The translations under genes and the position numbers were made by a program. Below are positions 5,546-9,542 of a stretch of DNA of 39,509 nt, piece by piece; the first letter of the stretch is position 1, and every line of letters begins with the position of its first letter. Origin of the DNA: Desulfobacteraceae bacterium (GTDB lineage: Bacteria > Desulfobacterota > Desulfobacteria > Desulfobacterales > JAABRJ01). A model generated the notes under the pieces. That model searched no databases and was not told the origin of the DNA. It worked only from the letters and a program-made list of their open reading frames with translations. The DNA lies in NCBI GenBank assembly GCA_022340425.1, contig JAJDNY010000171.1, positions 1 through 39,509 on the forward strand, given 5' to 3'.

Positions 5546-5619
5546 TCGGCCGGCATCTTTCCGAGCTTTAACAGGGGATACCCAAGGCTCTCCCCCGACC
5601 CGAACCAGAATGGGTGCGC

Positions 5620-8091
5620 ATGTCAAGCCAGCCGCAACCGCAACCCCCGTCTCCGGTGTTCATAGAGGTGGCCGTGGCCCTGCCGGTGCAGCGCACCTAC
5701 ACCTACAGCGTGCCGGCCCTCTATCAGGCCCAGCTTCAGCCCGGAAAACGCACCTTGGTGCCCTTCGGCAGGCGCCGGGTGACCGGCTATGTCCTCGGGG
5801 CGCTCGCGCCACCCGAGGATGGCCTGGAGATCAAGGCGGTGCTGGATATCCTGGATGCGCAACCGCTTTTCCCGGCCGCCATGATCCCGTTTTTCAAATG
5901 GGTCGCCGACTACTATCTACACCCGCTGGGGGAGGTGATCAAGGCCGCTCTGCCCCAGGGCATCAATCTTTGCGACCGGGCGGTGCTGAGCCTGACCCCC
6001 GAGGGACAGGCGGCCCTCGTGCAGAACTCGCTGCCCCCCCTCACCCGGCAGGTGCTGGAAAGGATCGCCCAAAAAGCCTGCCAGCCCAAGGACCTGGGAC
6101 GCAGCCTGGGGGCCGCGGTTCCCGCGGCGCTGCTGCACTCCCTGAGTGACGCCGGCTGGGTGGCGCGCGCGCGGGTCCTCAAGCGGCCCGCCATCGGCGG
6201 CCGGACCGAGCGCTTCGTCACCATCGCCCCGGCCGTCCGCCGAGCGGACCTGACCGGGCTGACCCCCAAGCGGCGTCAGCTTTTCGAGGCGGTGGCCGCC
6301 GCCGGTGAAATTTCCTCGGTGCGCCTGGGGGAAATCATGCCCGGCGCCGCCCGGCTGCTCGCGCCCCTGGTGCGCTGCGGCCTGTTGCGGGTGGTGGAAA
6401 AAGCCGTCTACCGCGACCCGTTCGGGGAGGCCATCGCCCCCGACCGCGCCCCCCAGCTGACCGATGAGCAGGCGGCGGCAGTCGCCCGGGTGGAAACGGC
6501 CTCGTCGGAAGGCTTCGCAGCCTTTCTGCTGGCGGGGGTGACGGGCAGCGGCAAGACCGAGGTCTACCTGCAGCTGGTGGCCCAGGCCGTCAGCCGGGGG
6601 CGGACCGCCCTGATCCTGGTGCCCGAGATCGCCCTGATCTCCCAGACCGAGCGGCGTTTCCGGGCGCGCTTCGGCGAGCGCGTGGCTGTTTTGCACAGCG
6701 GGCTTTCCGCCGGTGAGCGCTTTGACCAGTGGCTGCGGATCGTCCAGCACGAGACCCCCATCGTGATCGGTGCGCGCTCGGCTATTTTCGCCCCTCTGGA
6801 GGATCTCGGGTTGATCGTGGTCGACGAGGAGCACGACAATTCCTACAAACAGGACCACGGATTGCGCTACCATGCGCGGGATCTGGCCCTGGTGCGCGCC
6901 AAGCAGGCCGGTTGCGTGGCCCTCCTGGGCTCGGCGACCCCCTCGGTGCAGTCCTGGCACAACGCCCAAAGCGGCAAGTTCGAGGCCCTGCGGCTGAGCC
7001 GGCGCGTGGAAAACCGGAGCCTGCCGGAGATCACGGTCGTCGATCTGACCGAGACCCGCGATGTGCGCGGGATCCGGCGCTTCATCAGCCCCACCCTGGA
7101 GACGGCCATCACCGAGACCCTGGTCCGCAACCAGCAGGTGCTGCTGTTTCTCAATCGCCGCGGCTTTGCCAGCCTGCCCATCTGCGCCGCCTGCGGCGAA
7201 GCGCTCAGGTGCGCCAACTGCGATATCACCCTGACCTACCACCGCCATGCCAACGCCTACCGCTGCCACTACTGCGGCTATTCGCGGTCGGCGGCCGCCT
7301 GCTGCACGACTTGCGGCTCTTCGCGGATCAAGCTGCTGGGGCTGGGGACCGAAAAGGTTGCCGAAGGGGTGGCCGCGCTCTTTCCGGAGGCCCGGGTGGC
7401 CCGCATGGATCGCGACACCACCGGCCGCAAGGGGGAGACGCTCAAATTGCTCAAGGGGCTGCGGGACGGCACCATCGACGTTCTGGTGGGAACCCAGATG
7501 GTGGCCAAGGGCCATGACTTCCCCAACATCACCCTGGTGGGGATCATCTGCGCGGACCTGTCGCTGAGTTTTCCGGATTTTCGCGCCGGCGAACAGACCT
7601 TTCAGATCCTGGCCCAGGTGGCCGGCCGCGCCGGTCGCGGCGGTGCGGCCGGTCGGGTCATTCTGCAGACATACACCCCCGAACATTTCAGCATCGTCGC
7701 GGCCCGCCAACAGGACTTTGACCTTTTCTACCGACGGGAGATCGGCTACCGTCGTTCCCTGAACTACCCGCCCTTTGCGCGGCTGGCGCAGTTGAAAATT
7801 TCCGGCCGCCACAAGGAGCGCACGGCGGAGAGTGCCGCGGCGCTGGGGGAGATCTGCCGGCGGCTGAGCCGCCGCGACGAGGTGCTGGCGCGGGCCATCG
7901 AGGTGCTGGGCCCGATCGAGGCGCCGCTGGCCCGGATCGCTGGCCAGTACCGCTGGCAGATTCTGGTCAAGGGTCTGGGGGCCGGGCCCCTGAGACGCTT
8001 TCTGTGGCTGTTGACCACGGAGCCCGGGCGCGTCCTGAGCCCCCCACAGGTGCGGGTGGCCGTGGACGTCGACCCCGTTTTCATGCTATAG
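5620..8091 (+). CDS. priA: Primosomal replication-restart helicase PriA (N')
   Basis: The 823-aa protein (from the ATG at 5620; a GTG two codons earlier is possible) matches full-length PriA, the superfamily 2 3'-5' DNA helicase that reloads the replisome at stalled forks. Order of domains: N-terminal 3'-DNA-binding domain (VALPVQRTYTYSVP), winged-helix region, and a helicase core with Walker A GVTGSGKTEVYL near residue 310 and the DEEH box VVDEEHDNSYKQ near 405. These are followed by the zinc-binding insertion, rich in paired Cys (CAACGEALRCANCD, then CHYCGYSRSAAACCTTCG), motif VI AQVAGRAGRG and the C-terminal domain. All motifs look intact. It has its own promoter. The start overlaps only a spurious upstream extension of the neighbouring minus-strand gene. 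Confidence 0.96.
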   Translation: MSSQPQPQPPSPVFIEVAVALPVQRTYTYSVPALYQAQLQPGKRTLVPFGRRRVTGYVLGALAPPEDGLEIKAVLDILDAQPLFPAAMIPFFKWVADYYLHPLGEVIKAALPQGINLCDRAVLSLTPEGQAALVQNSLPPLTRQVLERIAQKACQPKDLGRSLGAAVPAALLHSLSDAGWVARARVLKRPAIGGRTERFVTIAPAVRRADLTGLTPKRRQLFEAVAAAGEISSVRLGEIMPGAARLLAPLVRCGLLRVVEKAVYRDPFGEAIAPDRAPQLTDEQAAAVARVETASSEGFAAFLLAGVTGSGKTEVYLQLVAQAVSRGRTALILVPEIALISQTERRFRARFGERVAVLHSGLSAGERFDQWLRIVQHETPIVIGARSAIFAPLEDLGLIVVDEEHDNSYKQDHGLRYHARDLALVRAKQAGCVALLGSATPSVQSWHNAQSGKFEALRLSRRVENRSLPEITVVDLTETRDVRGIRRFISPTLETAITETLVRNQQVLLFLNRRGFASLPICAACGEALRCANCDITLTYHRHANAYRCHYCGYSRSAAACCTTCGSSRIKLLGLGTEKVAEGVAALFPEARVARMDRDTTGRKGETLKLLKGLRDGTIDVLVGTQMVAKGHDFPNITLVGIICADLSLSFPDFRAGEQTFQILAQVAGRAGRGGAAGRVILQTYTPEHFSIVAARQQDFDLFYRREIGYRRSLNYPPFARLAQLKISGRHKERTAESAAALGEICRRLSRRDEVLARAIEVLGPIEAPLARIAGQYRWQILVKGLGAGPLRRFLWLLTTEPGRVLSPPQVRVAVDVDPVFML

Positions 8092-8128
8092 GCAGCGCGC
8101 CGCCGGAGGCCGTGCCGGGAGCGGGCGC

Positions 8129-8157
8129 TTGACTTCGGCTGGCCGGGACATTACCCT
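8129..8157 (+). promoter_or_regulatory. Predicted promoter for the DUF1573-like selenoprotein candidate
   Basis: TTGACT (8129-8134) and TACCCT (8152-8157) have a 17-bp spacer and lie about 30 bp before the ATG at 8186, which has a strong GAGGTG ribosome-binding site. The -10 box is a weak match. Confidence 0.35.
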
Positions 8158-8185
8158 TCCCTAAATCTTCCATTCGAGGTGAAAA

Positions 8186-8917
8186 ATGACATTATACCGC
8201 CTGTTGCCAAGGCTTGTGCTGGGGCTTCTGGTGCTCTCGGCCGCGACGGCGCCAGCCGCTCGCGCCGGCGCCCAGCCCGCACCCGCGGCGGTCGTTGAGA
8301 CGACCGCATTTGAATTCGAACCGGTGGTCGACGGCGCGGCCGTGCGCCACGAGTTTACCATCGCCAACCGCGGCGACGCTCCTTTACGCCTCCTGAAAGT
8401 CCGCACCGGCTGAGGGTGTGCAGCGGTCTCGTATCCGAGACAGATCCCTCCCGGCGGCGAGGGCAAGATCAAGATTCAGGTGGATACCACCGGCTACGGC
8501 GGTCGCGAATTGCGCAAAAGCGCCGTTGTCGATACCGATGACCCGCGGAACCCCGCCATCACCCTGCAGATTTCAGGCAAAGTGGCGCGCTTCGTGACGA
8601 TCATCCCCCATTCGGTCCAATTCTCGGGGCCGGTGGGCACCCCGATGTCGGCCGTGGTGCGGATCCTCCCCGAGCCGCAGTTCCCCTTCAGGGTGCTCTC
8701 CATCAGCCCCAAAACGGGGGATCACATCCGCTGCGACCTCCAGCAAGTCACCGAGTCCGGGCGACCGGTCTACCTGGTGACTGTGGAGAATCTCAAGGTC
8801 GACAAGGGCCGTTACCACGATGTCGTGCTGGTCAAAACCGACAGCGGGATCCGGCCCGAGATCAAAATCAGCGTTTTTGGGAACCTTTATGAACGGCCGC
8901 CTAAAAGCCAATCCTGA
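8186..8917 (+). CDS. DUF1573-like exported protein with in-frame TGA (candidate selenocysteine, residue 76)
   Basis: Read through one TGA at 8411-8413, a single frame encodes 243 aa. It has a signal peptide (hydrophobic residues 8-21, ARA cleavage site near 27) and a DUF1573/Ig-like region: FEFEPVVDGAAVRHEFTIAN, LRLLKV, then RTG-TGA-GCAAVSY, IPPGGEGKIKIQVDT and TDDPRNPAITLQISGKV. DUF1573 proteins normally have a TGCGC-type motif after the 'l.kV' strand; here the TGA takes the place of the first Cys, leaving U-G-C. The same frame continues on both sides, with no indel and family-like sequence after the stop. A hairpin follows the TGA (see 8412-8450). This makes selenocysteine more likely than decay, but a nonsense mutation or base-call error cannot be excluded. 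Ordinary gene calling would split it into 8186-8413 and 8480-8917. Its molecular role is unknown. The HAD gene overlaps its end. Confidence 0.7.
8412..8450 (+). promoter_or_regulatory. Candidate bacterial SECIS stem-loop
   Basis: Directly behind the in-frame TGA, GTCTCG (8426-8431) pairs perfectly with CGAGAC (8436-8441) around a TATC loop. An outer stem GAGGG (8412-8416)/CCCTC (8446-8450) can close the structure. The upper stem begins 12 nt after the TGA, close to the 11-nt spacing of the E. coli fdhF element. If the last G-C pair opens, the loop begins with GU, in line with the usual requirement for a G at the start of the loop. The internal bulge is asymmetric (9 and 4 nt). Confidence 0.5.
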
Positions 8918-9542
8918 GATCCGGGTGGTCGCCTTCGACTGCGACGGGGTGATGTTCGACTCCGCCGACGCCAACCGGGCCTTCTACAACGACATCCTGC
9001 GGCGCATGGGCAGGGCCGAGATGACCCCGGCCCAGTTCGCCTACACCCACATGCACGCGGTTCAGGATTCCATCGCCCACCTGTTTCCCAACCCGGCCGA
9101 GCGGGACCAGGCCCACGCGTGCCGGATGGGAATAAATTACGAGCAGTTCATCCCCATCATGCGGATGGCCCCCTATCTCAAGCCGCTGCTGCAAAACCTC
9201 AGGCGGCGCTACAAGACCGCCGTCGCCACCAACCGCACCGACACCATGCCGCGCGTGATGTCGGATCACGGTCTCGAAGGTTACTTCGACCTGGTGATCA
9301 GCGCCGCCGATGTGCGCCGCCCCAAGCCGCACCCCGAGCCGCTGCTGAAAATTCTCGACTTCTTCGAAGTGTCACCGCGGGAGATGATTTACGTGGGGGA
9401 TTCGGAAGTCGACCGGCTGGCGGCCGCCGCGGCCGGCATTCCGCTGGTGGCCTACAGAAACCGCGAGCTGGCCGCCGATTTTCATGTGGACGACATGCAA
9501 GCCCTGGAAACGCTGCTGCTGGAGCGCAACCCTACCCTCTGA
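8889..9542 (+). CDS. HAD-superfamily hydrolase, phosphoglycolate phosphatase-like
   Basis: The 217-aa protein carries the four HAD motifs in order: DCDGVMFDS (I, nucleophile Asp near residue 17), TNRT (II, near 114), KPHP (III Lys, near 145) and GDSEVD (IV, near 172). A helical cap lies between I and II, as in subfamily IA phosphatases such as Gph. It therefore should dephosphorylate a small phosphorylated metabolite, with Asp-phosphate as intermediate and Mg2+ as cofactor; the substrate is not readable. The ATG at 8889 lies inside the last 29 bp of the DUF1573-like gene in another frame, so the two are probably translationally coupled. A longer frame from 8820 adds non-homologous residues and was not used. 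The next gene is convergent. Confidence 0.88.
   Translation: MNGRLKANPEIRVVAFDCDGVMFDSADANRAFYNDILRRMGRAEMTPAQFAYTHMHAVQDSIAHLFPNPAERDQAHACRMGINYEQFIPIMRMAPYLKPLLQNLRRRYKTAVATNRTDTMPRVMSDHGLEGYFDLVISAADVRRPKPHPEPLLKILDFFEVSPREMIYVGDSEVDRLAAAAAGIPLVAYRNRELAADFHVDDMQALETLLLERNPTL

Follow-up and report, generated by a model that had tools for sequence, protein, structure and literature searches.

An in-frame UGA is very probably read as selenocysteine in a DUF1573 / OS_HP2-family gene of a Desulfobacteraceae bacterium

How is a single TGA to be read when the same frame encodes recognizable DUF1573 sequence on both of its sides? The question arises at positions 8411-8413 of the window, by which we mean the whole stretch of 39,509 nucleotides analyzed here. 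The open frame on the forward strand from 8186 to 8917 has this TGA as its sole internal one and terminates at a true stop, TGA 8915-8917; TGA is also used as an ordinary stop at the ends of neighboring genes, which makes a recoding of TGA throughout the genome improbable. Standard ORF calling splits the gene into 8186-8413 (75 aa) and 8480-8917 (145 aa), the two broken genes that the initial annotation had foreseen. Translation with TGA as selenocysteine (Sec) gives 243 residues with U at position 76, in the context ...VRTG-U-G-C-AAVSYPRQIPPGGEG... The Pfam model PF07610 (DUF1573) matches residues 37-133 (62.7 bits against a cut-off of 26.1, E=3.4e-17). This match covers both flanks of the TGA without an indel, and the TGA itself takes the place of the first Cys in the domain's CGC motif. 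The initial annotation had described one frame with one TGA at exactly this Cys and a downstream half that keeps the DUF1573 pattern, and the extension of the match past the TGA to residue 133 bears it out. An N-terminal export signal, judged by eye, suggests that the protein is exported. Other read-through TGAs with coding-like flanks were sought in the window by eye, and every case was an antisense shadow or an ordinary gene end. The features discussed below are collected in Table 1.

Table 1. Positions in the window of the putative selenoprotein gene, its codon and RNA features, and its neighbors
Feature	Position	Strand	Basis or remark
priA (primosomal helicase), conserved upstream neighbor	5614..8091	+	neighbor genes across loci
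DUF1573 / OS_HP2-family selenoprotein gene	8186..8917	+	243 aa; family-model match, codon alignment, structure model
In-frame UGA, very probably decoded as selenocysteine, residue 76	8411..8413	+	homologue codons
Putative bacterial SECIS-type hairpin	8412..8450	+	fold, synonymous recoding, covariation
SECIS-type lower stem, takes in part of UGA	8412-8416 with 8446-8450	+	fold
Cys78, partner residue in U-G-C motif, nearly invariant	8417..8419	+	homologue alignments
SECIS-type upper stem	8426-8431 with 8436-8441	+	apical loop UAUC
HAD-family hydrolase, conserved downstream neighbor	8889..9542	+	29-base overlap with selenoprotein gene

The gene is an ordinary, well-supported member of a selenoprotein family that has already been described. 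It matches the NCBIfam model NF041425, OS_HP2 family (seleno)protein, with 138.9 bits against a cut-off of 100. Reviews include DUF1573 (pfam07610) with the motif UGC among the selenoprotein families, its first report being from the Olavius algarvensis symbiont (PMC9312934, PMC13188914), and OS_HP2 (pfam07610, UxC) was listed in 2008 (PMC2398784); the original report, as cited in these papers, dates from 2007 and concerns that symbiont. The novelty suspected in the initial annotation thus did not hold, given these listings and the existence of a dedicated family model. The OS_HP2 selenoprotein of the Olavius algarvensis delta symbiont has the same domain and the same U-G-C, and we found nothing that separates the window protein from it. 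The domain is likewise shared by Cys-type DUF1573 (PF07610) proteins of Bacteroidota and Desulfobacterales, in which C-G-C is invariant at the corresponding site and a Cys codon replaces the UGA.

A homology search found homologues in 54 of 58 related genomes, most matches having exactly one internal TGA, and many matches with a single TGA were again found in a wider sample of the phylum. All matches of the 58-genome search were retrieved, and the codon alignment comprises 67 homologue rows from Desulfobacterales-type genomes, the order of the source organism. The initial annotation had proposed to look for homologues with TGA or TGC at the same codon; the alignment has TGA in 53 rows, TGC in 12, TGT in two and no other codon. 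Four positions, Asn61, Sec/Cys76, Gly77 and Cys78, vary little or not at all among the homologues, and the U/C-G-C motif is invariant in alignments of 27 and 28 rows; in Bacteroidota it reads CGC. Changes between Sec and Cys on the protein tree number approximately six by parsimony, of which at least three are forced by well-supported branches. The two loci L031 and L065 of genome G036 are sister copies, of which one has Sec and the other Cys. Elsewhere, several Cys forms occur as second copies alongside a Sec form of the same genome. A peptide-pattern scan of genome contigs used a pattern containing Cys and therefore returned Cys forms only. A search of viral contigs found no relative. At one locus, L095, the TGA is present but U-A-S replaces U-G-C, with one extra residue after it, and Cys78 is seemingly lost or shifted. 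Another, L076 in genome G009, has a second in-frame TGA near the C terminus, which is probably an ordinary stop overrun by the homology search.

Decoding of the UGA would depend on the selenocysteine machinery, and the initial annotation had proposed to look for selA, selB, selC and selD. The first two and the last are present in the source genome, each with a score over its cut-off (selA 594.6 bits, selB 367.5, selD 378), whereas selC was not found in the source assembly (209 contigs, 97.7% complete) with an Rfam model, DNA similarity or anticodon-arm patterns. ARAGORN, run near selA, selB and selD and at the anticodon-arm pattern sites of the source genome, gave no selC either. The SelD of this genome has its own TGA at the GUASKL site, a known selenoprotein position. 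Among 30 genomes searched, 24 have a selC over the cut-off, and in many relatives it adjoins a PepT-like peptidase gene. No close match to this peptidase gene was found in the source assembly, where the matches are only 30-35% identical. Because the usual neighbor is missing too, the absence of selC probably reflects a gap in the assembly, which is the simplest and likely reading.

Evidence at the RNA level comes from a hairpin that begins within the UGA. In the published model of the bacterial SECIS element, the hairpin follows right after the UGA, with its apical loop 16-37 bases away and a guanosine in the first two positions of the loop; a subset of putative elements fails this model (PMC13188914). 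In most Sec forms the UGA and the apical loop are 17-18 bases apart, in agreement with the published distance. Minimum-energy loop calling placed a guanosine at the start of the loop in only four of 53 Sec forms (8411-8450 in the window and the homologous stretches of loci L010-L098), so that by this calling the hairpin of the family mostly lacks it; in the window, the G at 8431 closes the apical loop. Among 49 Sec forms the upper stem was paired in 85% of cases, against 51% in versions recoded synonymously without change to the protein (z=14.2). The corresponding values for 13 Cys forms were 40% and 32% (z=1.9), without a SECIS-like hairpin clearly above background, unlike the Sec forms. These z values treat the sequences as independent though they are related, and the contrast with the Cys forms, together with covariation, is the better support: five of the six upper-stem pairs change on both sides with pairing retained. 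Pairing of the lower stem is also enriched (z=8.9 on the same basis), but this stem is less certain because its 3' arm has an alternative partner, pairing with which is enriched as well (z=10.6). Taken by itself, the window sequence, folded as 42 bases from the UGA onward, forms a hairpin only slightly better than shuffles do (z=-1.38), and the RNA evidence thus rests on the family. The hairpin, starting within the UGA and peaking 17-18 bases after it, would guide SelB, which would bring Sec-tRNA(Sec) to the codon at 8411. The predicted product is an exported protein of two Ig-like domains with a Sec76-Gly-Cys78 motif.

Gene decay or a sequencing error is frequently the cause when a metagenome assembly shows one internal stop, and the lack of selC in the source assembly could be taken in the same sense. 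We rejected this explanation on the basis of the family-wide conservation of TGA at the homologous codon, and we consider it hardly credible: 52 other homologues of the 67 have TGA at the same codon, and the remainder have TGC or TGT. A relative of the same genus is 81% identical over the available part and keeps the TGA, and changes between the two are mostly synonymous (synonymous to nonsynonymous 13:5 before the TGA and 6:4 after it, the latter on few codons). In relatives of 40-50% identity, the region downstream of the TGA is conserved to the end of the gene. Random decay and the lack of an aligned Cys, both named in the initial annotation as arguments against selenocysteine, are contradicted by the synonymous excess on both sides and by a codon that is only TGA or Cys. 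Its selenocysteine reading is supported by this codon pattern together with selA, selB and selD, the synonymous excess and the covarying hairpin. We are highly confident, from comparisons of sequence, that the TGA at 8411 is read as Sec and that the protein belongs to DUF1573 / OS_HP2, a confidence that does not extend to its function. A further proposal accepts Sec at this position and adds a selenium-dependent switch, in which ribosomes lacking Sec would stop at 8411 and less of the coupled HAD hydrolase would be made. Many families of the order keep the arrangement priA, DUF1573 selenoprotein, HAD hydrolase (5614-9542 in the window). In 44 of 54 Sec loci the HAD gene comes next in the same direction, and two more loci have priA only; these counts are lower bounds, since the flanks retrieved were short for many loci. 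In the window the first 29 bases of the HAD gene overlap the selenoprotein gene. The estimated HAD start falls between -40 and +60 bases from the end of the selenoprotein gene in 38 of the 48 loci with a HAD neighbor, which speaks for such coupling. Four of 14 Cys forms were also seen at the priA/HAD site among the fetched loci, many of them with short flanks. The adjacency is hence not tied to Sec, and we regard the switch as quite improbable.

What the Sec-Gly-Cys motif does is a separate question. The structure model, whose mean pLDDT is 91.6, is all-beta and can be read as two Ig-like domains; U-G-C sits at a turn between strands 67-74 and 79-82. Foldseek returned generic Ig-like matches only, with low TM-scores. 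The HYDIN/CFA65/VesB-like Ig domain (PF22544) and ciliary central-pair Ig proteins belong to the same Ig-like fold class, but share only approximately 10-16% sequence identity with the window protein, again at low TM-scores; 2qsv, the closest solved bacterial match by sequence, is without the C-G-C motif. On the basis of the U-x-C motif and of what is generally known about Sec/Cys pairs, we suggest that the protein probably has a periplasmic redox role. We lean slightly toward thiol/selenol chemistry in which Sec76 would act as the attacking selenol and Cys78 would close a selenenylsulfide. The main alternative is that Sec is used but that U-G-C forms a ligand site for a soft metal, copper, mercury or similar, instead of a catalytic redox pair. 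Such a site would be compatible with a fold that is Ig-like and not thioredoxin-like, and with His55, which in the 28-row alignment is as invariant as Sec76 and Cys78; moreover, the SO_0444 family Cu/Zn efflux transporter, a listed UxC selenoprotein, is a metal protein. However, Bacteroidota relatives keep CGC but not His55, none of the genes adjoining the locus is a metal-handling gene, and selenoproteins of known function are mostly oxidoreductases (PMC2398784). Metal binding therefore appears to us unlikely, though worth serious consideration, and we retain the redox role as our tentative preference. The following combined proposition is improbable as a whole: the protein carries out selenol redox chemistry in the periplasm on an Ig fold and not a thioredoxin fold, a conserved priA-DUF1573-HAD operon encodes it, its SECIS belongs to a subclass without the usual guanosine in the loop, and translation of the HAD gene is coupled to Sec insertion.

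In conclusion, the gene described here is a further, strongly supported member of a selenoprotein family that has been described but has no assigned function. The comparison of homologues shows the predicted Sec form to be the usual form in Desulfobacterales-type genomes, kept by selection at the RNA level and in a conserved gene neighborhood. To the description of the family we add the order of priA, selenoprotein and HAD genes, at least three switches between Sec and Cys, and a SECIS loop mostly without the published guanosine. As a redox scaffold, an Ig-like fold carrying Sec-Gly-Cys would be unusual. Through the Sec/Cys pairs that exist, the question of redox chemistry on an Ig fold becomes testable, and the sister copies of G036 provide a natural pair for comparison.
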